Virus record (IMG/VR): IMGVR_UViG_3300031951_001341
Coordinates: 1 to 21,978 of that record
DNA from: a virus
Reading direction: 5' to 3' (one strand)
DNA length: 21,978 bases
Position numbers and translations under genes: made by a program. The notes beneath the pieces were generated by a model. That model had not been told where the DNA came from. It worked only from the letters and a program-made list of their open reading frames with translations, and searched no databases. Shown here in pieces: positions 990 through 21,314 of this stretch. Positions within the stretch are counted from its first letter, which is position 1; each line of letters begins with the position of its first letter.

Positions 990-3687
<2,698 letters not shown>

Positions 3688-3689
3688 TT

Positions 3690-4367
3690 ATGAGCTGCGG
3701 ATGCGGAAACAATAACTGCAACGACTGCAACCAGACGGGAGACCTCTGCGCTCCCCCGGTCCCGGTTGTCACCATCGTCGCCGGCCCCGTTGGTCCCACC
3801 GGAGCCACCGGCCCCAGCGGCCCCGCCGGCTTTGGCGTCACCGGCCCCACGGGTCCCACGGGCGCTCAGGGCATCCCCGGACCCATCGGCGCTAACGGCA
3901 CCACGGGCGCCACGGGCCCGACCGGCGCTTCCGGCGCACCGGTGGCGTTCTTCACCGGCGTCACTTGGGACCCCGCCTCGGCTACGGCCGATCTGGTGAA
4001 CCTTCAGGGCGGCCGGGTGCTGGACTTCGGCGCGGTCAACTTCACGGGCGGAAGCTACCTCTTCAGCCTCAAGATGCAGATCGGCTGGAACGCCGCCGCG
4101 GTGGGGCCCAACGACCTGAACGGATCGGTCGACTTTCAAAACGGCACCACGGTCGTGAAAACCATCAAGTGGGGCCGTTCTAAGAGCGAGGCGACCGGTT
4201 ACCAGTACGGCGTCGCTGAGTCTTACGACTTCTGGTTCATCGCCACGGTCACGAATGGTCAGAATCTTCGTTTGAGTTGTTCGCCGCAGTTCTACTTGCT
4301 GGGAGCACAGCTCACCGCATTCCCCGTTCCCACCAACGTCATCACTTCCCCCGGATTCATCCTTTGA
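3690..4367 (+). CDS. Short collagen-like virion protein with Cys-rich N-terminus
   Basis: A 225-residue protein in three parts. Residues 1-20 contain five cysteines (3, 5, 10, 13, 20) in [14 protein letters not shown], followed by a Pro/Val linker. Residues 32-83 are collagen-like Gly-X-Y repeats, here Pro-rich (GPT, GPS, GAT), unlike the GVT-rich neighbour. Residues 84-225 form a beta-rich head ([16 protein letters not shown]..., [16 protein letters not shown]..., [22 protein letters not shown]) that reads like a jelly-roll fibre knob. It is probably a second fibre or head fibre. The Cys cluster could anchor the trimer by disulfides or bind a metal. A good Shine-Dalgarno precedes the ATG, and the stop is two bases before the next start. 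I do not recognise a named family for the whole protein. Confidence 0.78.
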
Positions 4368-8517: not shown

Positions 8518-9044
8518 TGGTTCTGGAGACTCCAGTCGTTTCCGAGGTGAGCATCACGGCGGTTGTGCCGGGGGATGTGGAGTTGTCGCCGGCGGAAAGG
8601 GCCGCCTTGGCTTGCGATCCGATTAACCGGCTTGAGGCGTATATGCTGACTCTGCCCCAAACGGAGTATCCGCTTGCTCATCACTTCATCCCCAAAAACG
8701 GCAATCTGGACTCTGGTCTTTACGTTCGCGAATGCGTTCTACCGGCTGATACAGTATTCATCACCGAAATCCACCGTACGGAACATCCGTTTGTGATTTC
8801 CAAGGGCTCGGCGATTGTCTGGTGTCACGATACTGGTTGGGTGCGCCTTTCGGCTCCGCATACCGGCATTACTAAACCGGGAACGCGCCGAGTGATTCGG
8901 ACTCTCGAAGAGACGATCTGGACGACTTTTCACGCGGTAAATGAAACCGACGTGAGCAAAATTAAACAGTCGATCATTTTGCCGCACGTTATCGTGGGTA
9001 AATCGAACGAGACTCTTGAATCGGTGCTAAAACTATTCCCGTGA
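8517..9044 (+). CDS. Cupin-like (RmlC-type) phage structural protein
   Basis: 175 residues. The core NGNLDSGLYVRECVLPADTV, TEIHRTEHPFVISKGSAIVW, SAPHTGITKPGTRRVI and TIWTTFHAV is a small double-stranded beta helix. The Gly and Pro positions are typical of cupin proteins common among phage late genes. Possible metal ligands are His86, Glu89, His90, His115 and His139. The N-terminal 50 residues (AERAALACDPINRLEAYML) are helical and may anchor it to a partner. No enzyme activity can be inferred. In similar phages such genes sit between tail and ejection genes, as here. The start shares one base with the preceding stop, and the stop overlaps the next GTG start by four bases. Confidence 0.65.
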   Translation: MVLETPVVSEVSITAVVPGDVELSPAERAALACDPINRLEAYMLTLPQTEYPLAHHFIPKNGNLDSGLYVRECVLPADTVFITEIHRTEHPFVISKGSAIVWCHDTGWVRLSAPHTGITKPGTRRVIRTLEETIWTTFHAVNETDVSKIKQSIILPHVIVGKSNETLESVLKLFP

Positions 9045-9997
9045 ACTTGCTTCAATTCCTCTTCCCGCTCGCGTTTTTGTTTGGGCGCCAAGGGCGATCG
9101 TTCTCCCTCGCCCGGGACGGGCTTGCTTGCTGCGGCCTTGGCACTTGGGGCGCAGTTGCCTCGGCGGCGATTACTGCCGTGGGAACTGCCAGCGCCGTTA
9201 GCGCCCAACGGAAAGCCGCTGCCGCTCAAAAAGACGCGATGCTCCGGCAACAGGACATCGCGGACAAGCTCAAGTACGAGCCAATCAATCTGGAGAACTT
9301 GAAGGAGCAGACGCGCCAGCAAGCGATCGCCAACGCGACGCAATCGCTTGCGCTGGAGCGTGAGCTAACCCCAGAAGTTGCGGCCACGCGCCAGATGGTG
9401 GCGGAACGGGTCCGCAGCGATCTGGCCCTTGGCGGGGCGCTTTCGCCTGATGTCGCCAATCAGGTGGCCCGCGCTTCCCGCACGATGGGTGCGATGAGCG
9501 GCGCCCCGGCCGGCCCTCTGACCGCCGCTCAGATCGGCCTGACCGCCGAGGGGCTCCGCTCTCAGCGTTTGGGACAGGCCAATCAGTTGTTGCAGATGAA
9601 CCCGCTTCGGCCCGTGGGGCTTGACCCGGGCGCGTTGGCTTCCGCAATCGTCGGTCAGAACGCGGCGATAAACCAGTTCAACGCTAGTAAAGCTGGGATT
9701 AATGCTAACCTTGCCCAAAGCGCGGGACAGGTTGCTGCGGCTCAAGCCGCTGGTCAGCACAGTTCCAATATGGCGATCCTGAACGCCCTTCCCTCGGTCT
9801 TTGGCGGTATTAAGGCGTTGGGCGGTGCATTTTCTGCCCCCTCTACCCCCAGTACGGGAGGAGCAGGTATGGGTCTTCTTCAGAACTATACCCCGTTAAG
9901 TGGGGCAGCTCCATTCTCTACCGCGGGAATCCCGAACCAAGTTAGCCCCACCACGCCGGGCTTGTTTAATTACAGTTTCGGACCCCCGCCCGGCTAA
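9041..9997 (+). CDS. Internal virion (ejection) protein, T7 gp14-like position
   Basis: 318 residues starting with GTG at 9041, within a GTGA overlap with the cupin gene. Two hydrophobic stretches lie at the N-terminus: MNLLQFLFPLAFLFG (1-15) and LGTWGAVASAAITAVG, beginning near residue 32 just after a Cys pair. An Ala/Gln-rich helical region follows (SAQRKAAAAQKDAMLRQQDI, LKEQTRQQAIANATQSLALE), then Ala/Gly/Pro-rich repeats to the C-terminus. A membrane-prone N-terminus plus long helices and low-complexity Ala/Gln fits proteins such as T7 gp14 that are ejected into the cell envelope to form a DNA channel. No Shine-Dalgarno precedes the GTG. The coding call is firm; the ejection role is inferred from composition and order. 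Confidence 0.62.
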   Translation: MNLLQFLFPLAFLFGRQGRSFSLARDGLACCGLGTWGAVASAAITAVGTASAVSAQRKAAAAQKDAMLRQQDIADKLKYEPINLENLKEQTRQQAIANATQSLALERELTPEVAATRQMVAERVRSDLALGGALSPDVANQVARASRTMGAMSGAPAGPLTAAQIGLTAEGLRSQRLGQANQLLQMNPLRPVGLDPGALASAIVGQNAAINQFNASKAGINANLAQSAGQVAAAQAAGQHSSNMAILNALPSVFGGIKALGGAFSAPSTPSTGGAGMGLLQNYTPLSGAAPFSTAGIPNQVSPTTPGLFNYSFGPPPG

Positions 9998-10002
9998 TCA
10001 CT

Positions 10003-11382
10003 ATGGCTCTCCAAACGTCAGGCTTCCAACTTTCCCAGTTTGATCGGGCTCCCACCATCCCGTCGAACATCGGCGTCGTCGATACAAAAGGTATCTACGA
10101 CGCTGTCGTAGACTCGCTCAAGGCGAACGAGGCCCTGCGTACCACGCAACTGGTTCAGGCCAAGACTGACGCCGAGCTTACTTTGGCGCGAGACAAAGCA
10201 CGGACCGAACAGTCCCTGCTGGAGTCTGAAGCGGCCACTCGGCGTGCCCGGGCCAACTTGCTCGCCAGCGAAGCCGCTTTTGCGATGCCCGGCGTTGAGG
10301 GCGCTGCACGGGCCAAACGCGCTCAGGACGCGTTGGCTTCGATGCGGGATGAGCTGGCAATCGGCAATCTGCCGTTAGCTTCCGAAGTTGATCAGGCGCT
10401 ATTGAGGCAAAAGCAGCTTGAAGCTCAAGCGGTCACTCCGGAAGTGGTCGACGCCCGCACCAAGGCCGCGATGTACCAGAATCAACTGGCGGCCGGAAGG
10501 GCACAACGCGGGCTTGGTCTGCTTGACTCGGAGGCAGAGTACGAGCGTTTAGAATTGCAGCGCAAAAAGAGGGAGGCCGAGGCCCTGAGCGACCCGGAAC
10601 TTATTGCTCAAATTGCCCGATCCAAAGCGTTTAAGGGGATGCCGGCTTCAATTGGTACAATTCAGTACGCCAAGATGATTTTGGCCGATCCGAACAGCAC
10701 GCCCGAGGACCGGCAAGCCGCGTTGGTCGCGATGAAAGTGGCGCCGACCCCGAACGCTGATCCAAATTTAATCGGTCAACAAAAATTTGAAGGTCAATTG
10801 GGCTCTCAAATAGCCAAGATTGAGGCTGCCCTCCCCAAACAGGAAACGGCGATACTGAGTTTTGAGGCCAAATCCGACAATTTCCAATCGGTTCTCGACC
10901 AAGCGGAAGCTTTGGTGAGCCCTTACAGTACTGGAATTGCCGCTCTTGCCCCGCTTCCGTTGACGGAAGCCAGAGCACTAGCTAGTCTTTTAGTGACAAT
11001 TGACGCAAATACGGGTTTTACTGAATTGCAGGAATTGCGCGCCAGTTCCCCTACTGGGGCGGCGTTGGGCGCGGTAAGCGACGAGGAAAACAAACGGCTA
11101 TCCTCTAGCATCGCGAATATCGACCTCACTTTATCTGCGGAAACGGTTCTTCGGCGGCTTCAACAACTGCGCGAATATCGCCAAGGGGCTGTTAAACGTC
11201 TTAAAGAAGGGTTTCAGCGGGATCAGAACGCGGTGCAAGCATACCGCTCAAGCAAAAAACTGGATGCTTCTCCTTTGATCGCTCCCCCAACGGGTGGGCA
11301 ATCTTTCAACTATAGCGTGGGAGGCGAAAGGTACGACGTGCAGACGTTGCCCCCAATTCCGGTTCCCGCTCCGACGCGTTAA
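10003..11382 (+). CDS. Coiled-coil internal virion / DNA transfer-like protein
   Basis: 459 residues, almost fully helical. The N-terminal 240 residues are charged, Ala-rich coiled coil (ELTLARDKARTEQSLLESEA, QLEAQAVTPEVVDARTKAAM). Residues about 330-395 contain ANTGFTELQELRASSPTGAA, then LGAVSDEENKRLSSSIANID. This GF..LQ..R..SPTG.ALG.VS..E....S...LD pattern recurs in many phage internal virion or DNA transfer proteins. The segment LGSQIAKIEAALPKQETAIL before it completes the module. The gene sits in the T7 gp15 position. The gap before it is five bases and after it three. Some stretches (10770-10870) are visibly AT-richer than the structural genes upstream. The conserved module is recognised; the exact role is inferred. 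Confidence 0.62.
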   Translation: MALQTSGFQLSQFDRAPTIPSNIGVVDTKGIYDAVVDSLKANEALRTTQLVQAKTDAELTLARDKARTEQSLLESEAATRRARANLLASEAAFAMPGVEGAARAKRAQDALASMRDELAIGNLPLASEVDQALLRQKQLEAQAVTPEVVDARTKAAMYQNQLAAGRAQRGLGLLDSEAEYERLELQRKKREAEALSDPELIAQIARSKAFKGMPASIGTIQYAKMILADPNSTPEDRQAALVAMKVAPTPNADPNLIGQQKFEGQLGSQIAKIEAALPKQETAILSFEAKSDNFQSVLDQAEALVSPYSTGIAALAPLPLTEARALASLLVTIDANTGFTELQELRASSPTGAALGAVSDEENKRLSSSIANIDLTLSAETVLRRLQQLREYRQGAVKRLKEGFQRDQNAVQAYRSSKKLDASPLIAPPTGGQSFNYSVGGERYDVQTLPPIPVPAPTR

Positions 11383-11385
11383 TTT

Positions 11386-13356
11386 ATGGCCGAGCCATCT
11401 CACATCATCACCGAGAAGGGGACTGGGCGACGCTTGCGGGTCCAATCCCGGGTTAAACCTGACGACCGGGTTGCCGCGGAGTTGTTCGCGGAGCACGACC
11501 GTCGCGCCGCGGAGGCTCAACGCACCGACCGCGAACGACTTCCGAGTGAGCCCCCGGCTGAGTTGGCTTTTCCAAATTTTACGGTAAAACCTGAGAGTGT
11601 GTCGGAATCCCGCCCGGGGGTAGGCACGATGGCCGCGGAGATGGGGATGAGCGTCGCCGGCGGAGCTTTGGGCCAGACCGTTGGTGCCGCAGGTGGCCCG
11701 GTCGGTATGGCGGTTGGTGGGGCCATCGGGTCTGGTTTGGCCAACGTCGCCAATCAGCTCATCCGGATGCGTTCCGATCCCAACTATCGGTTCAAGTACG
11801 GGGAGTTGGCTGCGGACATCGGCACCGGGGCAATCCCGGGCGGCCCGCTGATGAAGACGGGCGTCAAGGCGGCGGCAAAAGAGGGCCTGAAACAAGGCGC
11901 CGGCGGTCTTGTTGGCGGTAACGTCCAGTCGGTTATCGACGAGCAGCGCCTACAAACGGGCAAAGAAAACCTTCTCTCTGGAGTCTTGCCGGCGGTGGCA
12001 GGGGCGGGCGCGCAAAGGCTTTTGTCCGGCGCTCCCGAAATAGCCCAAGCCGCACAAGCGCAACGGATGTCTCCCCCGAAGGAAGTGGCGGCGCTTGAGG
12101 CGGCCCAAAAACTCGGCCTCAAGGCGTTGCCGTCAGACATCAAGAAAGCGGGAACCGGCGCCGTTGGGGTAACCGAGGAAATTCCCGAAGGTTTTTTCCG
12201 CACTCAATTGGAGAGTTTGAGCGGCGCGACCGCGTCTAAGCGTCAAATCCAGTTGGAGAATCAGAAACCCATCAACGACGCGGTCCGGCGCCAACTGGGA
12301 ATTGAGGGCGATGAGATTAGTCCGGCGGCGCTCAAGGAGGTCCGCAAAAAAGCGGGCGAGGTCTATGAGCGGTTTGCCGCCATTGCCGAAGACGCCAAAC
12401 CGCAATTGGAACAATTCAACCGGTGGCGAGATGAGATTCCATATTTCTCTAACGATCCCGGTAACGCCCAACGTCAGGCCCTACTTGACGAATTCGATGC
12501 GAGAACCGCGACGCGGCGCGCAGAACTGGAAGCAGCGGTGAAATCCGATCCGACTGAGTTGCGGCGAGTGCGCGGGGAAGCGCAAAAGATGATGGACTCG
12601 TACTACTCGTCCGGAGGAAAGAATGTCGACGCCCAGCTCAAGGCGTTTGAGTTGCGCGAGCAGGCCAAGCAGATTGAAGAGGCTATGGAGGTGGCGGCGC
12701 GGAACAGCGGGATGCCCGAGCTGGCCGACGATTTGATTGCCGCCCGACGCCAGATTGCGAGGACCTATGCGGCGGAAGACGCGCTAAACCCGGGTAACCT
12801 CAATATAGACCCGACCAAACTGGCCCAGCAGAAAGCCCGCAAGGTGCCATTGGACGGGGAAATGGCGACCATTGCGGAGTTCGCAAGTGCGTTCCCCCAA
12901 AGTGTCCGTGAAGCGTCCAAAGCGGCAGATCCGGGCGTCAGCACCGCCGCCACGATGTTGGCGGGCGGTGGAACGCTGCTGACCACTAAGGACCCCTTGT
13001 TGTCGGTTGCTGCGGCGGCGGCGTTACCTCTGGCTCGCGAGGCTGCCCGGGGCCTACTGACCTCTGAGGGTACGCAAAAACGGGCCACTGAAGCTCTAGT
13101 CGAACGGGTGGGCCGGGAAAAAATCCCGGTCCCCACCGGGCTGCGGGCGGCCGAGGCCACTACCCGGATGATTGGTCAACAAGCCGGTAAAATCCTGTCT
13201 GACGAAACACCGGAAGTCATCCGGGAGGATGTAGAGGCTTTGCAGTCTGATCCCCAGAGAATGAAACCCATTTTTGAGGAAATGTACGGCAAGGGGTCGT
13301 CGGACAAGTACTTGATGCTGTCGGCAAAAGACGCGCAGAAAAATAAAAAGAAGTGA
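11386..13356 (+). CDS. Internal virion protein with glycine-zipper membrane segments
   Basis: 656 residues. Residues 82-125 are a Gly/Ala-rich hydrophobic stretch (MSVAGGALGQTVGAAGGPVG, MAVGGAIGSGLANVANQ) with the G-x3-G spacing of membrane-inserting glycine zippers. Another weaker Gly/Ala stretch follows (FKYGELAADIGTGAIPGGP to LLSGVLPAVAGAGAQ). The middle, about 230-490, is charged helix (EVRKKAGEVYERFAAIAEDA). A second hydrophobic patch lies near 518-560 (STAATMLAGGGTLL, LSVAAAAALPLAREAARGLL). The C-terminus is basic (KDAQKNKKK). This alternation suggests a protein packed in the capsid and inserted in the host envelope on ejection. The stop overlaps the GTG start of the giant gene by four bases. 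I recognise the type, not a named family. Confidence 0.58.
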   Translation: MAEPSHIITEKGTGRRLRVQSRVKPDDRVAAELFAEHDRRAAEAQRTDRERLPSEPPAELAFPNFTVKPESVSESRPGVGTMAAEMGMSVAGGALGQTVGAAGGPVGMAVGGAIGSGLANVANQLIRMRSDPNYRFKYGELAADIGTGAIPGGPLMKTGVKAAAKEGLKQGAGGLVGGNVQSVIDEQRLQTGKENLLSGVLPAVAGAGAQRLLSGAPEIAQAAQAQRMSPPKEVAALEAAQKLGLKALPSDIKKAGTGAVGVTEEIPEGFFRTQLESLSGATASKRQIQLENQKPINDAVRRQLGIEGDEISPAALKEVRKKAGEVYERFAAIAEDAKPQLEQFNRWRDEIPYFSNDPGNAQRQALLDEFDARTATRRAELEAAVKSDPTELRRVRGEAQKMMDSYYSSGGKNVDAQLKAFELREQAKQIEEAMEVAARNSGMPELADDLIAARRQIARTYAAEDALNPGNLNIDPTKLAQQKARKVPLDGEMATIAEFASAFPQSVREASKAADPGVSTAATMLAGGGTLLTTKDPLLSVAAAAALPLAREAARGLLTSEGTQKRATEALVERVGREKIPVPTGLRAAEATTRMIGQQAGKILSDETPEVIREDVEALQSDPQRMKPIFEEMYGKGSSDKYLMLSAKDAQKNKKK

Positions 13357-16300
13357 ACTCTCCGAGCAGCAACTACCTGATCGAGTCAGAAGCTTCAGAC
13401 CGGCCGCAGGAGAGTAACTACCTGATCGAGCCCGAAACTTCGGCCGAACCGCAGGGAGATTATTTGATCGAGCCCGAGCCGCAGGGGCTGGTGTCCAAAG
13501 CCAAGGACACCGCGATCTCTTTTAGCTCTGGCGCCAACAGCCTGCTTCAGATGGCGGGCGACTTCTACGGTCTGGTGACGGGGGATATGGGCAACGTGGT
13601 CTCTCAGCAGGCGCGGGAGAACATCAAGTACCTCCAGCAGCGGAAGAGCCCGCAACTGCGGCAGGCCGAGGAAGCGCGGCGCAAGGCGATCGACGCGGAA
13701 GGGGACGAGCTGGACAAGGCCCTGACCTACGCCCGTGAGACTTTCACCAACCCATCCCTGTTGAGCGGGGCCTTGGCCGAGCAGCTCCCCAACTTGGTGG
13801 GGATCGGTGGTGCCGGTGCCCTTGCCAAAGCGGGCGCCGAAAAGGTGCTGCTGAAGGCTGCCGCGGATCAGGCGGCCAAGCGCCTTGCCGCCAAGCGGGC
13901 CGGTCAGATTGGCGTTGGTACGGCGGTGGCCACCGGCGCCGGGATGCAGGGCACCGATGTCGGCGCGGACCTGTACGACGAAGCCGTCTCATCGCTCGAC
14001 AAGATCACCGACGAGCAGGCTCGCTCGATCCCCGAGATCGCCCGCCTGATGGACGAGAAGGGGGCCAGTCTGGACGAGGCCAAAACAGCTTTTGCCTTGG
14101 CCCTTGGCCGCGAGGCGTTCGCGCTGGGCGCGACGATCTCGGCGGGGGCGCAGATGCTGCCCGGCGGCCGCACGGTCGAACGGGCTTTCGTCGGCAGGGG
14201 CGTCGGCCGCCCTTTGGCTGGCGCCATCAGGGGCGGACTGGGCGAGGCTGCCAGCGAGGCGGTGGAGGAAGGCGGCAGCCGGGTGGCGGCAAATCTTCTG
14301 GCGCGGCAATTCGAGCCCGATCGTCCCTTGGCCAAGGGCGTCGGTGAAGCCGTGGGTCAGGCGGCGGTCGTCGGGGGTATCCCCGGCGCCGCGTTTGGGG
14401 CCGCATCTTCCCGCCCCACAACGCAGCCGGCGCCGGAGTCAGATACTACGGCGGGCAAAACCGGAGAAGCTCCGGCGTCGGCTGCGACCAAGAGTGCCCT
14501 TGCCGGCGCTCCCGAGGTGGCGCTGGAGAGTTCCGAAGGCTTGACGCCCGAGCAGTTCTACGCGGCCGTCAACATCCGCCAAGCCCGGCTGATGGGCGGG
14601 GAGCCCAATCCTGAGGACATCCGGATCGCCGGCGAAGTGCCGCTGCCTAAGGTGCAGATCGACCCGGAGAAGGCCAACCGGGCGATTGAGGAAGCCCAAA
14701 GCGCGTTGCAGGAATGGGTGAGTTCTACGCCCAACGCGCCGCAAACCGTTGAGGTCATCTTCGACCCTGAACTACTGCACAACGGGTATGGCGTGCAGGG
14801 GTACTACAAGGACGACGGCACCATCGCCATTAACGCCGCGTTCGTTTCTCCGGATCGTGTTGCCAGCATCGCGAGTCACGAGTGGGCCCACCAAACTCTG
14901 GCGACGCCAGAGGGTCAGCAGGCGTTCGCCGATTTTGTGCAGCGCGAAATTCCGCAGGCCGAGCTGGACGCGCTGGCCGCCCGGTACAAAACGCAGGACC
15001 GCCGGGTGCTGCTGGAGGAATGGATCGCGCAGAATCAGGAGAAGGCTCCGGGCGTGATCGAGCGGATCGTTGCCCGCATCCGCGAGTGGCTCGCTGGCGT
15101 GGGCATCGTCGACCTGAGCGACGCGGAGGTTGCGGACATTATGCTCCGCACCCTGCGCCAGCGGGGCGAGAATCGGGTGCAACCGGACACGTCGATGGGC
15201 GACGGTGGCGTTGTGCCGGTCGACCCCAACGCTGAAGCCTACAACTCGTTTATCGGGCAGCGCACGAAACCTAAGATGTCGCTTCAGAAGTTGCCCACGA
15301 CGGGCGACGTGGTGGACGCCAATGGGAACCTTAAATACACGGTTCCCCAGAAAACTCTCGATGTCAGCCATTACTCGAACCTTACGGGGTTGACCGACAT
15401 TGACCCTGCCTTCTACGGCACGGGGAGTGGGCAGCATTACCACCGGATGATGAAGGGCATCAACAAGTCCTTTTTCTTCGTCGGGAACAGCAAGCCCCGG
15501 GGCAACGAGAACGTCTCCGGCAAGGGGATGACCCGCTACCGTACCAGCATCGACTCTTCGCGCATTTACAATATGGACAAAGACCCGCTAAGTCTCTGGT
15601 TCGCCGCGAACCCGGAGAAAAGCGAGGGGATGCTGAAAGAACTGGGTTACGACGGTTTTTTGGCCCGCACCGACGACAATCGCACCTTTGTCGCGTTGTT
15701 TTATCCGACCGATTTGGAGACGGGAGAACTCAACCGCACGGTGGCGCCCGAAAAGGAGCCCGAAATTGAAATTGATGAAGCCGCGCTGGCAAAAGCGACG
15801 GCCAAGTACGAACGGGAGCAAGCGCGTCGGCTGCGTCGTGCCTTGAGCGGCAAGTTCAGCTTGACGGAAGAGGAAGCCAATCTTAACAAGATTTCACGCG
15901 ATGAAGACCAAGTCCAACCTGCTGTCGAAACAGGAGCAGCCCCCGAGGGCGGCCCCGCCCCCGTCGGAACAGAACGAGGTGGAGTTCCGACGCCCGCCGC
16001 GGGGATGGAATCTGGAGCAGGCGCGCAAGCAGCACGCCGTTTGGGCGCGCAGCCAAACGAAGAAGTAAGACGGGCTGCCGACGGATACAACGAGGAGGCC
16101 GGGATGGGGCCGATCACCCACGGGCACTACGTGCCGGTGGACGAGCCCTTGGCGCGGCAAGTGGCTGCCGCGTTCGACGCGTTGCCGGAACTCGACGATT
16201 CCGCTGAGACCGTTAATTCCTACGCTGCCTTGGCTCGGGAAGTAGACAAGCAGTGGGATTACGCCACCAAGACGCTTGGGATCACCTTTGAACCGTGGGC

Positions 16301-19300
16301 CAAGGAGGGCCAGCCCTACGCCAACTCCCGCGAGATGGTGAAGGACGTGAAGGAAAACAAGCACCTGTACTTCTTCCAAGGCGGCGAGCCTCACCCCTAT
16401 ATGAGCCGGATCGACCCGGAGACCGGGCTCACCAGCAACGACAAGTTCCGGGCCGTTCACGACTTGTTTGGCCACGCGGCCGAGGACTACCAATTCGGGC
16501 CACGGGGGGAGGAGAATGCTTGGATCAAGCACAGCCAAATGTTCAGCCCCGAGGCGCAACGGGCGCTGTCGACCGAGACCCGCGGTCAAAATTCGTGGGT
16601 TAATTACGGCACTCAGAATTACGATGGCGACCAATACCTAAACATCCCCGTCGCGGAGCGTCCTTACGCCAAACAGAAGGTGGCGTTGCTGCCGGTGGAG
16701 CTGACGGATTGGCGGGCGGCTTTGGCGCGGGGTGGAACTCGTTTCAGCCTTACCGAAAGCCGGCCTGACGAGATGGGTTTCTTCTCGCCGCTCCAGCGGG
16801 CCATCGACACGATGCCCCCGGGCGGGTTCTCCGACTACGTCGCGACGCCGGCGGTGGCGGGGCGCAGCTTCCCGGCCCGCACGATCCGCGACAAGGAGGG
16901 CAACGTGATCAAGGAAATCCCGGCGCGGACCGAACCGGACAAGCCGGCGCGGATCGTGACCGCCGAGGAGCAGCTCCGCAGCCACCTTGAGAAGTACAAC
17001 GTCAAGAAGGAGGAGATGGACGACATCCGCGACTTGAGCGGCCAGTCGTTCTCCGACTGGATCAAGGACAACTCCAAGGCGACCAAGGACCAGATCGCCC
17101 AGTTTGTGGCTGAGAATCAGGTCTCAGTCACCCCGGTGCTGCTTGAGGGTGAAAAGCAATATGAGATCACTCAGGACGGAGAGCGCACCGAGTTGATTTT
17201 TGACAGCCCGGAAGCGGCCAGAGAGTACATCGAATCCCAAATTCAATATTACCAGTCCGAATTCAGAATTCGCAACAATTCGCTGTACGATCCGTCGGGA
17301 GAGGAAATTCTGAAGATTGAACCAAGCTCGCAACAAGGGGCACGTACTTACAAAATAATTAACCCCAACAATCCCGACTCCGTCATTTCCACTTCACAAT
17401 TCACGTTAGGCGAGGCTAGGGATTTCCTGAAGTATCAAATCTCCCTTTTGGGGGACCGAGAGTACGAGCGGTATAATGTAGTAGGGAAGCCGTCAGCTAC
17501 CTTTGAACAGTACACGCTGCCCGGGGGAGAGAACTATCAGGAGGACGTGCTCACGTTGCCCAAAGGCGCTCGTGGAGCGGGTTATCGCTCCAATCATTAC
17601 CCTGACATCCCTAATTACCTCGCGCACGTCCGGACCAAGGACCGCGTGACCCCGGACGGGCAGCCCGTGCTGTTCGTGGAGGAAATTCAAAGCGACCTGC
17701 ATCAGCAGGCCCGAGAGAAAAAGTACAGGGGCGCCGAATCGCCGGAGGCAAAAGCGGAGCGACTTCGTCAAATAGCGGAAATCCGCGCCCAAATGGAAGA
17801 GAACGCGGCCGAGCAGGACCGAATTTACGCCAAGCGTCGGAAACTTGAGGATGATTCTCTGGCTCAGGCGTTCAAAAACCGGGACGTTGTGGAACAGGAC
17901 CGTTTAATGGCAGAAATTAAGGTGCTGCTTCAAACCGCGATTAATCTGGAACGGATTTATGCAAACTTGCAGGGGCAAGCGGAAGCGTTGTCTCAGGTTC
18001 CCAATGAGCGGGGTCTGCCCAGCGCGCCGTTCAAAAAGACTTGGCACGAGATGGCCTTCAAGTACCTCCTCCACGAGGCGGTCCGGAACGGCGTCGACTA
18101 TCTGGCTTGGACCACCGGCGAACAACAAAACAACCGATACCCCGGATTGGAGACGCAAGTGCAGGCCGTCGAGTGGAACACACCGGCGACATACGAGCTG
18201 CCCATCGCGCTCAGGGACAGGAGGGTTAAGGAAACCGATAAACTGGTGAGCCTCATTACCGTCCGCTCGGAATACCCGATCGATCTGAAAGTCGAAGCCG
18301 ATGGGACCGTTCATCCGCTTGGGAGCAGCAATCCGGCGACGGCGAGGATGGAGGGCGCCAGCCTGAGCGAGTTGATCGGGGCCGACCTTGCCAGCCGCAT
18401 CCTGAACGAGCCGTCTGGCCGCACCGAGACGCGAGACTTGGTCATCAACTCGGAGGGAATGACTGGTTTCTACGACCAGATTCTGCCGCAATTCGCGGCC
18501 AAGTACCTGAAGAAATTCGGCATCAAGCCCCAGAATATCAATGTCGTGCTCAAAAAGCAGGCGGAGGAGCCGAGTCCGCTCGACGTTCCGGGTGAAGAGG
18601 GTAGTACCGTGACGATGCCGCAGACCTCCGCCGCGGTTAACGCGGTGCGGATCACGCCAGAGATGAAGCAGGAGTTTCGCACCCGGGGCCAGCCGCGCTA
18701 CAGCCTGACCTCTGCCAAGCCGCGGAGCGTGAGCACCGTGGGCGTCACCCGCGAGACGCTGAACTTGCCGTTGGAGGGCGCGGTGCCCAAGAGCGCGGTC
18801 GCCAAGGCGCTGAACGATATGAGCCGCGGTCTTCTGGGCGGCGAGGAGTTCGACGACGACCAGCTCGCGATCGCGCACGGCGTGATGAACGCGGTGGCCG
18901 AAGGACGGCATCAATTGCTGCTGGGCGACAAGTCCGGCGCGGACTGGTACGACACCGACATCGACACGGCCAAGAAATACCTGCGGCGGGCGTTGCCGGG
19001 CCTGAAGACCGACACCGATATGGTGCTTTTCACCGCGGTGATGGCGCCGACCTCCTTCGGCCAAAACCCGCTGACCAACGTCGCCACCGCCGTCCGCATC
19101 TACGAGGCCGCCGGCGAAAAGCCGTGGGGCAATCTGCCTCCGCGGCAGGAGAGCGGCAAAGGCTGGACCACGCGCGGCAAGGCCGTCGAGCTGGGCCTCA
19201 GCCGCCTGAACCAACTGGTGGAGGAACGCGGGGAACGCGGCACGGTCAATTGGCTTCTCAAAAAGCACCCGATCTCAGAACTGCGGCAGTACAACGAGAA

Positions 19301-19868
19301 CGTGTCTGGCAGGGCCGGCGACCTGAAGTACGGCGCGTACATCTTCGGCCCCAAGGGCGGCCCGTTCTTCCTCAATATGAACGGCATCCGGGAGGAGATG
19401 ACCAAGGACCTCTGGTGGAGCCGCACCTTCAACCGCTGGTTTGGCACGATGGAGGAGACCGTGCGTGCCGCTCCCGACGAGGAGGGGGAGGGTCAAACCG
19501 AGCAGCAGGAGGAGGCGCAAGAATTCCGCATTCAGGAGACGCCCCGCAACGACGCGGACCGCCGCCGGATGGACGCGATCGCCAATCAGGCCGCCCAGCG
19601 GCTGGGATTGACCATCGAGGAGCTGCAAGCCACTCTCTGGTACTATGAACAACAGCTTTGGAAGCGGCTCGGAGCCAAAGTCGAATCGTACTCTTTCAAA
19701 GACGGAGCCCTCCGGATTCTCGAAAAACGGGGCATCGAGCGTCCGCGAGTTCGACGCAGCGATTCGCCGAATGAACAAAGAAGGAAGGCTGCCTACCTTC
19801 TCGCAGCTAGTGAAAGCCGTCCGCAGCCGGTCGAAACTCAACCAGTCGAAACCCGGGAAACCCGGTAA
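13353..19868 (+). CDS. Giant polyvalent virion protein (protease-, ART- and DUF7178-like domains)
   Basis: 2171 residues from a GTG inside a GTGA overlap. Order: three YLIE repeats (7-42); hydrophobic Gly/Ala segments (about 140-350); a metallopeptidase-like region with HEWAH at 509-513; an ADP-ribosyltransferase-like region (660-795, SHYSNL from His673, GYDGFLARTDDNRTFVALF); a conserved domain (918-1120) with RAVHDLFGHA (His1036, His1041) and ETRGQNSWVNYG; a helical module (1203-1261); a divergent repeat pair (1269-1367); a second conserved domain (1387-1735) with LPGGENYQE, FVEEIQSDLHQ and LAWTTGEQQ; and a DUF7178-like domain (1790-2105) with KGGPFFLNMNG and ELQATLWYYEQQLW. This is the build of phage polyvalent proteins carried in the virion and ejected with DNA. 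The frame looks doubtful after about residue 2130. It overlaps the minus-strand glycosyltransferase by 31 bases. Confidence 0.8.
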   Translation: MNSPSSNYLIESEASDRPQESNYLIEPETSAEPQGDYLIEPEPQGLVSKAKDTAISFSSGANSLLQMAGDFYGLVTGDMGNVVSQQARENIKYLQQRKSPQLRQAEEARRKAIDAEGDELDKALTYARETFTNPSLLSGALAEQLPNLVGIGGAGALAKAGAEKVLLKAAADQAAKRLAAKRAGQIGVGTAVATGAGMQGTDVGADLYDEAVSSLDKITDEQARSIPEIARLMDEKGASLDEAKTAFALALGREAFALGATISAGAQMLPGGRTVERAFVGRGVGRPLAGAIRGGLGEAASEAVEEGGSRVAANLLARQFEPDRPLAKGVGEAVGQAAVVGGIPGAAFGAASSRPTTQPAPESDTTAGKTGEAPASAATKSALAGAPEVALESSEGLTPEQFYAAVNIRQARLMGGEPNPEDIRIAGEVPLPKVQIDPEKANRAIEEAQSALQEWVSSTPNAPQTVEVIFDPELLHNGYGVQGYYKDDGTIAINAAFVSPDRVASIASHEWAHQTLATPEGQQAFADFVQREIPQAELDALAARYKTQDRRVLLEEWIAQNQEKAPGVIERIVARIREWLAGVGIVDLSDAEVADIMLRTLRQRGENRVQPDTSMGDGGVVPVDPNAEAYNSFIGQRTKPKMSLQKLPTTGDVVDANGNLKYTVPQKTLDVSHYSNLTGLTDIDPAFYGTGSGQHYHRMMKGINKSFFFVGNSKPRGNENVSGKGMTRYRTSIDSSRIYNMDKDPLSLWFAANPEKSEGMLKELGYDGFLARTDDNRTFVALFYPTDLETGELNRTVAPEKEPEIEIDEAALAKATAKYEREQARRLRRALSGKFSLTEEEANLNKISRDEDQVQPAVETGAAPEGGPAPVGTERGGVPTPAAGMESGAGAQAARRLGAQPNEEVRRAADGYNEEAGMGPITHGHYVPVDEPLARQVAAAFDALPELDDSAETVNSYAALAREVDKQWDYATKTLGITFEPWAKEGQPYANSREMVKDVKENKHLYFFQGGEPHPYMSRIDPETGLTSNDKFRAVHDLFGHAAEDYQFGPRGEENAWIKHSQMFSPEAQRALSTETRGQNSWVNYGTQNYDGDQYLNIPVAERPYAKQKVALLPVELTDWRAALARGGTRFSLTESRPDEMGFFSPLQRAIDTMPPGGFSDYVATPAVAGRSFPARTIRDKEGNVIKEIPARTEPDKPARIVTAEEQLRSHLEKYNVKKEEMDDIRDLSGQSFSDWIKDNSKATKDQIAQFVAENQVSVTPVLLEGEKQYEITQDGERTELIFDSPEAAREYIESQIQYYQSEFRIRNNSLYDPSGEEILKIEPSSQQGARTYKIINPNNPDSVISTSQFTLGEARDFLKYQISLLGDREYERYNVVGKPSATFEQYTLPGGENYQEDVLTLPKGARGAGYRSNHYPDIPNYLAHVRTKDRVTPDGQPVLFVEEIQSDLHQQAREKKYRGAESPEAKAERLRQIAEIRAQMEENAAEQDRIYAKRRKLEDDSLAQAFKNRDVVEQDRLMAEIKVLLQTAINLERIYANLQGQAEALSQVPNERGLPSAPFKKTWHEMAFKYLLHEAVRNGVDYLAWTTGEQQNNRYPGLETQVQAVEWNTPATYELPIALRDRRVKETDKLVSLITVRSEYPIDLKVEADGTVHPLGSSNPATARMEGASLSELIGADLASRILNEPSGRTETRDLVINSEGMTGFYDQILPQFAAKYLKKFGIKPQNINVVLKKQAEEPSPLDVPGEEGSTVTMPQTSAAVNAVRITPEMKQEFRTRGQPRYSLTSAKPRSVSTVGVTRETLNLPLEGAVPKSAVAKALNDMSRGLLGGEEFDDDQLAIAHGVMNAVAEGRHQLLLGDKSGADWYDTDIDTAKKYLRRALPGLKTDTDMVLFTAVMAPTSFGQNPLTNVATAVRIYEAAGEKPWGNLPPRQESGKGWTTRGKAVELGLSRLNQLVEERGERGTVNWLLKKHPISELRQYNENVSGRAGDLKYGAYIFGPKGGPFFLNMNGIREEMTKDLWWSRTFNRWFGTMEETVRAAPDEEGEGQTEQQEEAQEFRIQETPRNDADRRRMDAIANQAAQRLGLTIEELQATLWYYEQQLWKRLGAKVESYSFKDGALRILEKRGIERPRVRRSDSPNEQRRKAAYLLAASESRPQPVETQPVETRETR
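13371..13478 (+). repeat. Triple YLIE peptide repeat at the giant protein's N-terminus
   Basis: Residues 7-11 NYLIE, 22-28 NYLIEPE and 36-42 DYLIEPE repeat at 15- and 14-residue spacing, separated by acidic Ser/Pro/Gln linkers. Three near-identical short motifs in a disordered leader look like docking peptides for a partner, possibly another ejection protein or the portal. The partner is unknown. Confidence 0.7.
17157..17450 (+). repeat. Divergent tandem module inside the giant gene, AT-richer
   Basis: Two similar units lie between conserved domains. The first runs from Tyr1270 (YEITQDGERTELIFDS, then EAAREYIESQI). The second runs from Tyr1333 (YKIINPNNPDSVISTS, then EARDFLKYQI). The shared pattern is Y-x-I, a polar turn, Ser, then E-A-x-R/x-D/E-Y/F-I/L...Q-I, at about 63-67 residue spacing. 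Bases 17221-17280 hold 22 G/C of 60, compared with about 33 of 60 at 16981-17040. This fits an inserted or duplicated accessory module. Confidence 0.5.
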
Positions 19869-19908
19869 TGCTGCGGAGAGTACCAACCGGCTCCCCTTAG
19901 CTCGTTAA
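19645..19908 (+). other. Alternative +1 frame at the 3' end of the giant gene, coding-like
   Basis: In the frame one base later than the giant gene, an 87-codon reading runs to TAA at 19906-19908. Its first half (before about 19735) looks like a shadow. After that it reads SVREFDAAIRRMNKEGRLPT, then FSQLVKAVRSRSKLNQ, with ordinary codons. Over the same bases the giant frame gives RVRRSDSPNEQRRKAAYLLA with adjacent AGA and AGG codons. The natural C-terminus may therefore be the giant frame to about 19734 joined to this frame, by a +1 frameshift or because of a one-base indel (the A5 and G4 runs in CTCGAAAAACGGGGC are candidate sites). A separate small gene starting at 19645 is possible but has no adjacent Shine-Dalgarno. 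Confidence 0.4.
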
Positions 19909-21034
19909 GCTGGCGAAAAGCCGCATCGTACAGGCGCCCGCACCGCGCCAGAGAGTAGCGGCTGCGGGTCAGCGTGGAACAAATGCCCCGGTCGATGTCC
20001 TTGGACAGCTCGATCGCCTTGATCCAATCGCCGAGGGTGTTGCAGCGGTAGCCGGTTATTCCCTCGCGCACCGTCTCGGTGAACGCGCCGTAGTCGACCG
20101 AGATGAGCGGGGTGCCGCACAACATCGACTCCACTCCGCTGCCGGCAAACGGCTCGATGAAGTTGGTCGGCATCAGCATACAACGGGCCTTGCCGATCAA
20201 CTCAGCGCGGGCCTTGCCGTGAACCGGCCCAATGTACTCAACGTCGAGGTGGCGGTCCTCAGGACGAGGGTCGCTCAGGACGTGGTGCATCACCTCGGCC
20301 TGAAAATCGCCCTGACCGGCGAAAACGAACTTGGGCGGCACGGCGCCGGTCTCGGCGGCGCGCTTGGCGCACTCGCGGATGATCGCCGCGATCGTGGTCA
20401 TCCCCTTGGGCGGGGTGATTCGGCCCATATAAACGACGTAATCGCCTGAGCCATCACCGACGGGCCAGTCGTCGAGGTCGAAGTAGTTGGGGACGACCCA
20501 AGAGTAAAACCGGTTTTGGCCCGGCTCGCCCGGGCTGACCGAAGAGTCGTGGTCCCAATGGCCCCAATGGTAATGCCGCCAAGCCTCGGACTCAAAAATC
20601 CGCCACGCCCCGAACGGCTTGTCCGAGTACCCAATGCCGCTTTCGACGTGAACGCATTGGGGGAAGATTTTGACCAGTTGGTCGTGGGCCCGGCCGAACG
20701 GGTGCAGGATGAAATCGCCCGGCTGCACCCGCTTGGACAGCTCGACGATCAACCGGCTGTTGAAAGTCGGCCAGCCCCGTTCCCCGATCACGGCGTGATC
20801 GCCGTGGAACTGGGTCTTGCTCTTGCGCGAGTAATATTCGGCGAACTCGGTCGCATTCAAAATGTGGACCGTCTCCTTAGCCGCCGGATCGTCGACGCTG
20901 CCCTCGTTACAATAGCGGATCACGTCCCATCCGTAGGGCTGCATCATCTTGGCCCAGCGCCGGCACTTTCCGGTGAAGGCGCAATGGGAATACTCGTCGG
21001 TCAGCAGCGTGTGGAAACACGCCACCATATGCAT
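19838..21034 (-). CDS. Glycosyltransferase, GT4-like (group 1) family
   Basis: 398 residues from the ATG at 21034 (MHMVACFHTLLTDEYSHC). In-frame ATGs at 21052, 21070 and 21148 are alternatives; the last would overlap the divergent holin start. The N-terminal half has the phage-type opening HT....EYSHCAFTGKCRRWAK. The C-terminal Rossmann half has VVYMGRITPPKGM (about 200-212), KFVFAGQG, and EPFAGSGVESMLCGTP with the E-x7-E nucleotide-sugar motif (Glu294, Glu302 in this numbering), then ISVDYGAFTETVREGITGYR. It would transfer a sugar from an activated donor, probably with retention; the acceptor is unknown. It lies antisense between virion and lysis genes, so it has its own transcript. It could modify virion proteins, host surface glycans or phage DNA. 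Its 3' end overlaps the giant gene by 31 bases. Confidence 0.82.
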   Translation of the reverse strand: MHMVACFHTLLTDEYSHCAFTGKCRRWAKMMQPYGWDVIRYCNEGSVDDPAAKETVHILNATEFAEYYSRKSKTQFHGDHAVIGERGWPTFNSRLIVELSKRVQPGDFILHPFGRAHDQLVKIFPQCVHVESGIGYSDKPFGAWRIFESEAWRHYHWGHWDHDSSVSPGEPGQNRFYSWVVPNYFDLDDWPVGDGSGDYVVYMGRITPPKGMTTIAAIIRECAKRAAETGAVPPKFVFAGQGDFQAEVMHHVLSDPRPEDRHLDVEYIGPVHGKARAELIGKARCMLMPTNFIEPFAGSGVESMLCGTPLISVDYGAFTETVREGITGYRCNTLGDWIKAIELSKDIDRGICSTLTRSRYSLARCGRLYDAAFRQLNELRGAGWYSPQHYRVSRVSTG

Positions 21035-21131
21035 AGTGGGCAGGGCGGGCATAAGGTCGGATATCCTCATAAGATTCTGTGGGTCAAGTATGTTCTTGCC
21101 GGTCTGCAAGGGCGAATCAAACTGAGCCGCG
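21035..21131. promoter_or_regulatory. Divergent spacer between glycosyltransferase and holin
   Basis: The only non-coding stretch of any size in the window, 97 bases if the glycosyltransferase starts at 21034 or about 61 if it starts at 21070. Because the two flanking genes point away from each other, both promoters would have to lie here or inside a neighbour's 5' end. I see no convincing -35/-10 pair with normal spacing on either strand, and no clear operator palindrome, so this is a positional call only. Confidence 0.3.
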
Positions 21132-21314
21132 ATGAACGCTACCACCATTGCTGCTGTTGTACGTCACCTCTTCGGGATCGCGGGCGGTTGGCTCCTCGCC
21201 AAGGGCATTTCGCTCGACGCCGGCACCATCGAGACCGTCTCCGGCGCCCTCGGCTCGCTGATCGCGGTTGGCTGGTCCCTGTGGGCCAAGCAGAAGCCCA
21301 AGGATGCTGCCTAA
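21132..21314 (+). CDS. Small phage holin (Pam3-gp28-like)
   Basis: 60 residues. MNATTIAAVVRHLFGIAGGW forms a first, weakly hydrophobic helix, then LLAKGISLDAGTIETVSGAL, then LGSLIAVGWSLWAKQK as a clear membrane segment ending in Trp and Lys, with a charged tail KQKPKDAA. The pattern R-H-L...G-G-x-L-x-A-K-G...D-A-G-T-x-E-T...G...W-S-x-W is that of the small phage holins named after Pam3 gp28. It would form membrane lesions that release the endolysin. It is the first gene of the cassette, and the next start lies eleven bases inside it. No Shine-Dalgarno is seen. An endolysin gene is not visible in the window. Confidence 0.72.
   Translation: MNATTIAAVVRHLFGIAGGWLLAKGISLDAGTIETVSGALGSLIAVGWSLWAKQKPKDAA

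Follow-up and report, generated by a model that had tools for sequence, protein, structure and literature searches.

The gene studied here raises the question of what kind of protein a phage encodes in a single frame of 2171 codons, and how the domains strung together in that frame are used. The window, meaning the whole stretch of 21,978 bases that was analysed (IMG/VR virus record IMGVR_UViG_3300031951_001341), derives from an uncultured, probably short-tailed phage. In the isolate phage collection, no close relative of the window was found, nor any relative of its peptidase and tail proteins. The giant gene is the final one in a row of tail and internal-virion genes:

9041-9997, 10003-11382 and 11386-13356, plus strand: three genes preceding the giant, assigned to the internal-virion row by a phrog_805 match and synteny
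13353-19868, plus strand: the giant gene, 2171 codons, read from a GTG at 13353 to a stop codon whose last base is 19868

The frame, which an earlier note on this DNA had proposed at the same position, was confirmed as open, and its start overlaps the end of the preceding gene, GTG and stop together covering a 4-base overlap. On its 5' side lie collagen-like tail fibre genes, putative tail or fibre genes and genes with weak internal-virion matches; the match to the internal virion protein phrog_805 in the upstream row has an E value of 0.0075. The gene immediately 5' of the giant (656 aa) also occurs in relatives, and the order of the three upstream genes and the giant is kept in L002, L101, L102, L104, L107 and L012. 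In two annotated phages bearing the HDL domain described below, one of them deposited as a podovirus, the giant directly follows the lysozyme gene. Because of this gene order, the synteny and the arrangement in the annotated phages, the giant is most likely an internal virion protein; the term virion protein, used in the earlier note, is thus backed by gene position and not by proteomics. Profiles of the T7-type portal and T7-type RNAP gave no match in the relatives, and none in the controls either.

The middle gene of the upstream three (10003-11382) keeps its first 108 codons in relatives and is about twice as long in L101, L102, L104 and L012, making it a second variable virion gene. The two collagen-like tail fibre genes, at 1321-3687 and 3690-4367, contain long GVTG/GATG triplet runs. 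On the minus strand, a glycosyltransferase group 1 gene (19838-21148; PF13692, E 3.8e-12) converges on the giant. In L006 and L007, two to three consecutive frames of about 950-1100 codons occupy the place where other phages have one giant, the VEE-bearing frame stopping soon after the GVPLFS end of its module, and modules may therefore be split into separate genes in some phages.

Dissection of the protein gave the following parts, all on the plus strand:

13353..14543: N-terminal region, aa 1-397, Gly/Ala-rich and conserved in relatives
14544..15188: zincin-like metallopeptidase domain, aa 398-612, from invariant residues, a model and weak zincin fold matches
15273..15284: junction motif 1, KMSL, aa 641-644, from a motif scan
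15285..15851: ADP-ribosyltransferase (ART)-like module, aa 645-833, from hhalign to ART-PolyVal and copies in relatives
15852..15863: junction motif 2, KFSL, aa 834-837, from a motif scan
16053..16727: HDL domain, aa 901-1125, from phrog_3170 (E 1.8e-28), a 96-row alignment and a model
16740..16751: junction motif 3, RFSL, aa 1130-1133, from a motif scan
16920..18692: MID and VEE module, aa 1190-1780, from 75 viral loci, conservation, a model and Foldseek
18696..18707: junction motif 4, RYSL, aa 1782-1785, coinciding in part with the generic VEE end ITPEM..GQP[LR][FY]
18708..19865: C-terminal domain, aa 1786-2171, its conservation extending to every close relative and to other giants

The chain therefore joins disparate domains (peptidase, ART, HDL and VEE) and is encoded among virion structural genes, as judged from the gene row, the synteny in six relatives and the annotated phages. 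The classification as a polyvalent protein in the sense of Iyer and Aravind, already suggested in the earlier note, is well supported, with a peptidase, an ART and two more conserved domains in one chain that closes the internal-virion gene row. Pfam and NCBIfam searches with the whole protein and its pieces returned no significant family. A continuous fibrous protein, the outcome that would have spoken against this classification, was not seen: in the AlphaFold models, the regions of the peptidase, HDL and VEE fold compactly and with good confidence.

The N-terminal region is 81% identical to that of L002, with identity falling to 42% in L012. It had been described as membrane-prone, which holds weakly for its Gly/Ala-rich composition; the best 19-residue Kyte-Doolittle mean is 1.34 and there is no clear transmembrane helix. 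In the following domain, the predicted HExxH region takes the form HEWAH at aa 509-513 (14877-14891). Its residues, apart from the x positions, are invariant across five relatives together with the pair EE at aa 555-556, the likely third ligand. Both HEWAH and the EE pair lie within predicted helices, as the sequence pattern of zincins demands, and the model (pLDDT about 70-96) shows an N-terminal helix, three strands and two C-terminal helices, which is the order given for the MPTases of polyvalent proteins (PMC5512222). The sequence pattern is that of a zincin-like domain and the order of elements in the model fits; in structural comparison, zincins were among the best rows at low Z, the top row being 3e11 (Z 4.7, rmsd 4.9, 90 aligned).

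For the ART-like region, aa 641-833 gave no hit to ART-PolyVal (PF18760) at the Pfam gathering score. The prediction was nevertheless supported by profile-profile alignment (hhalign, probability 96.3, E 1.6e-9) against an ART-PolyVal alignment whose members L002 and L102 pass the Pfam cut-off. Copies of this module, 75-78% identical, are carried by L101 and L102. ART-PolyVal modules often end in SA[TI]GN.G..(N)P.I[RL].

The HDL domain contains HDLFGHA at aa 1036-1042 and ETRGQNSWVNYG at aa 1075-1086. Q967, F1048, G1052, E1053 and H1060 are invariant in 96 sequences and E1075 is 97% conserved; H1036, D1037 and H1041 are also invariant, in an alignment whose rows were partly collected through that very motif. 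The model is mostly helical (pLDDT 90-98). The domain recurs in 17 viral loci at 55-71% identity and in more than 100 bacterial contig stretches. No Pfam model matched the eight members tested and no NCBIfam model the seven members tested. Against the PDB, nothing was found by profile and no hit by fold, Foldseek and VIA giving no usable HDL row and VIA barely testing the HDL part. In the libraries searched, the clear fold relatives of HDL were only phage proteins, including stand-alone ones of mycobacteriophages and Gordonia phages.

H1036 and H1041 supply an HxxxxH metal pair within HDxFGH, and the same kind of motif is present in eight PF00351 proteins. Aromatic amino acid hydroxylases (PF00351) share the identical H-D-x-F-G-H iron-site motif, which reads HDxFGH in bacterial phenylalanine hydroxylases, and by eye the surrounding helices and strands seem to follow one another in the same order. 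In HDL, 34 residues separate the motif from the next conserved glutamate, whereas the distance in known aromatic amino acid hydroxylases is about 40. The profile match to PF00351 is weak (P 6.5e-4 to 8e-4, probability about 25-27%), scoring 33.7 against at most 21.4 for 45 decoys compared with HDL or PF00351, while one decoy compared with another profile reached 28.8. The resemblance is only suggestive and serves as a lead; we regard HDL as a putative metalloenzyme.

Bacteria also carry HDL as a gene on its own, about 220-340 codons long (L144-L223, bacterial contigs). In Micromonosporaceae, it has neighbours for which homologues were counted at up to 9 kb distance: an N-6 DNA methylase gene (26 of 80 loci), a protein kinase gene (25) and a type I-E Cse1 gene (19). 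In Streptomyces and Nocardia, it lies near genes for aminotransferase class V, a methyltransferase, a Cys/Met PLP enzyme and homocysteine S-methyltransferase. HDL is also part of gp99 of mycobacteriophage Alice (433 aa, L143:3659-4960), whose gene is surrounded by others for head fibres and head decoration.

The VEE module proper spans about aa 1380-1784 and recurs in 75 viral loci. VEEIQSD lies at aa 1442-1448 (17676-17696) and WTTGEQQ at aa 1586-1592 (18108-18128), with a coiled-coil insert at about aa 1460-1554. Its model has a mean pLDDT of 84 and gave weak Foldseek rows for SSAT, HAT1 and KacT at E 0.1-1; comparison with GNAT by sequence profile was not significant (P 0.13). The predicted fold is thus weakly acetyltransferase (GNAT)-like. 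All signatures listed in the earlier note were located and its two strongly conserved domains, HDL and VEE, recur widely. Most VEE modules of L027-L099 end in ITPE[ML][RK]..V..G[QLV]P[LMQ]F, with the sequence diverging straight after, so that module ends look standardised outside the giant's own family too.

The C-terminal domain is 84% identical to that of L002 and 26-32% identical to those of L021, L022 and L023, with W1865-Y1866, GPKxG and D2019..R2024 invariant. The suggestion that it resembles DUF7178 was not supported: PF23802 has no match in the window at E <= 10 and matches the C-terminus of L012 at 2e-17, and when the C-termini of the giant and L012 were compared as profiles, no significant similarity emerged. 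An HhH-GPD DNA glycosylase, a reading prompted by the K2001-D2019-R2024-R2028 spacing, which resembles that of endonuclease III, was likewise dropped as the profile comparison stayed at decoy level (P 0.24).

Each module border of the giant bears [KR][FYM]SL, at aa 641, 834, 1130 and 1782. Four of the split points proposed in the earlier note (640, 835, 1130 and 1785) coincide with these motifs. Borders in relatives bear the same peptide or a variant, which across the family marks almost every join. The consensus is [KR]-[FYM]-S-L-[TS]-[ED] in the clade of this phage. Two more distant relatives follow [KR]-[EQF]-S-[VT]-T-[DE]-x-P; L107 and L012 have RQSTTEQP or RQSTTDQP, RESVTEEP, RESTTDDP, RESVTEDP and RFSVTDKP. 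A 10-mer repeat finder detected this longer version in L107 and L012 and missed the motif of the window's clade because it is too short. The peptidases of L107 and L012 are the more distant ones in the set (about 43% identity), and their occurrence alongside a variant motif is consistent with, though not proof of, co-evolution of junction site and protease.

The motif occurs 4 times in the giant, where shuffling predicts 0.21, and 6 times in L002 (0.24 expected), and the broad motif 29 times in the giant and its six relatives together (4.6 expected); since the motif was defined on the window protein and L002 and the relatives share ancestry, these counts are not independent. None was found in the eight neighbouring proteins tested. 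All 20 strict motifs in these seven proteins (13,004 aa) lie after aa 560, the first 560 residues of all seven having no junction motif. In 111 other giants, 14 occur in 295,437 aa, which is 0.05 per 1000 aa and about 30 times rarer, ruling out the peptide as a general feature of giants. BLAST breakpoints cluster on it: 21 of 90 fall within 5 aa (3.9 expected) and 51 within 15 aa (10.7 expected).

A score matrix built from 28 family sites was applied to the left-out proteins L110, L013, L109, L111 and L112. L110 gave 4 hits against 0.4 expected, three of them at borders: those at aa 922 and 1169 flank the peptidase (942-1154), and that at aa 1350 follows the ART (1181-1342). In L013, the third hit lies directly after the HDL domain. 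Among the peptidase-bearing relatives, L109 and L111 gave no hits and L112 only weak ones. With the motif missing or weak in these three and missing in most other giants, cleavage at the peptide cannot be a general rule, and, to judge from the two or three peptidase-bearing relatives with no clear motif, the link between peptidase and motif is not obligatory.

The motif is written in different codons from site to site and from phage to phage (ATG TCG CTT, TAC AGC CTG, TAT TCC CTA, TAT TCA ATT, TTC TCT CTT), and the peptide is therefore conserved at the protein level; many junctions nonetheless have TTC AGC CTN. Of 33 listed sites, all have the serine and 32 have R or K, figures that are partly circular as the sites were picked by motif. 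Junctions 1-3 lie in stretches with model confidence below 50, which is consistent with exposed linkers.

The relatives L101, L102, L104, L107 and L012 (on the same contig as L108) were found with searches using the ART and peptidase regions. The closest relative is L002 (2334 aa), which matches aa 22-613 (83%) and 1119-2171 (66%) and nothing between, its homology restarting about 11 aa ahead of junction motif 3. The N-terminus and peptidase are common to all six relatives (42-97% identity), whereas the modules after them vary from one relative to the next. L102 has the window-type ART, two ART-PolyVal domains and another weakly ART-like module before the C-terminal domain. L101 has the window's ART followed by a module 94% identical to one in L002, while their N-terminal halves are only 61% identical; the common block (codons 832-1062) has 94.7% DNA identity and ends on the motif on both sides. 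The DNA of L101 and L104 is 96% identical up to the first border and 97% identical again from the next, while between these borders a 193-aa module stands in one and a 228-aa module in the other. These two patterns show directly that whole modules are exchanged, with the exchanged cassettes ending at the junction peptide. Among the swapped modules are ART-PolyVal domains that pass the Pfam cut-off and one module related to gp82 of mycobacteriophage L5. The latter (L101 aa 831-1059, L002 aa 837-1065) matches Phage_L5_gp82 (PF25735, E 5e-11), and a mycobacteriophage protein family thus occurs as a virion cassette in L101 and L002.

The earlier note had also thought that the combination and order of domains might be a distinct architecture. 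Comparison of domain order among relatives does not sustain this, as close relatives keep the ends and swap the middle modules, so the exact order is not a stable architecture; the novelty lies instead in the motif-bounded cassette design.

Our preferred reading, to which we give a probability of roughly 0.55, is that the giant is a polyvalent protein packaged in the virion, a polyprotein of effectors that can be cut apart and whose modules are exchanged as cassettes. A conserved N-terminal part and a zincin-like metallopeptidase would be followed by two to five exchangeable modules, mostly of about 190-300 residues, and in close relatives by a conserved C-terminal domain. The peptidase, or another phage or host protease, would most likely cut the junction peptide during assembly or after ejection; the most economical candidate is the giant's own peptidase. 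The contigs of six relatives, which are possibly fragments, showed no S78 prohead protease. Cutting would free the ART, HDL, VEE and C-terminal units in the infected bacterium, where we infer that they act on the host. Phages could trade effectors as cassettes because a peptide-bounded module can be spliced in with its release kept. A more specific version, in which the built-in metallopeptidase recognises the peptide as both release site and cassette border and the chain carries an HDxFGH enzyme, possibly a non-haem iron oxygenase of the aromatic amino acid hydroxylase type, is tentative and we would not bet on it. Besides the relatives and other giants that lack the motif and the N4 virion RNAP that is packaged uncut, two findings speak against a cleavable polyprotein: the last junction partly overlaps the generic end of the VEE module, and the peptidase resembles solved folds only weakly (best Z 4.7).

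A passive linker or a docking signal would account for much of what is seen. The peptide might be a tolerated linker or a leftover of recombination, modules being swapped at short conserved stretches of a chain that is never cut. The breakpoints do sit on the motif, the recurrent TTC AGC CTN suffices for short DNA homology, and phage N4 packages its virion RNAP whole. Varying codons argue against it, as do the retention of the peptide where unrelated modules meet, its presence in L110 and L013 despite low DNA similarity, and the constancy of the serine and the basic residue, partly circular as this is; we consider it rather unlikely. One peptide per module, conserved at the protein level and lying outside the folded domains, would also be explained by a signal for docking or packaging, with the ejection channel or a further internal virion protein as its binding partner. 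Such a signal should hardly be missing from the N-terminal 560 residues of all seven proteins and from most giants of other phages, which makes this explanation improbable. The large ejection proteins of T7-like phages occupy a comparable place in the gene row, and the giant could be an ordinary ejection protein with vestigial or structural extra domains. The invariant catalytic-type residues of HDL across phages and bacteria, the retained ART and peptidase signatures and the active exchange of modules leave very little room for that reading.

In comparison with the polyvalent proteins of phages and conjugative elements surveyed by Iyer et al. in 2017 (PMC5512222), the giant shares unrelated catalytic domains in one chain, a zincin-type MPTase, an ART and the virion gene context. 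It differs in having a defined peptide at its module borders and near-identical cassettes that move between relatives; a term search of the survey returned no interdomain cleavage signature. In the comparison with Pfam, HDL and VEE gave no match. Autoprocessing of polyvalent proteins by zincins was already argued there from DdrB of phage P1, a large virion protein with an MPTase domain that is cut before packaging, while the virion RNAP of phage N4, also large and MPTase-bearing, is packaged uncut (PMC5512222). Both resemble the giant in this respect, and the survey's passages on them describe no repeated junction motif for either. In Salmonella phage SPN3US, a phage prohead protease processes head proteins and packaged, ejected proteins (PMC10052503); there the protease is a separate protein, whereas the giant has a candidate in the same chain.

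The 2017 survey (PMC5512222) left open whether polyvalent phage proteins undergo processing, and where and by what. With the junction peptide, cut sites can be predicted exactly, and mutation of E510 should abolish cutting, which makes the processing question directly testable. If the preferred reading is true, the peptide would delimit effector modules that sequence profiles miss and aid the search for phage-delivered enzymes. The HDL family is widespread in bacteria and phages. What the giant would add to the known systems is a concrete candidate cut site, confined to the part of the chain after the peptidase, that is also the border of exchange.
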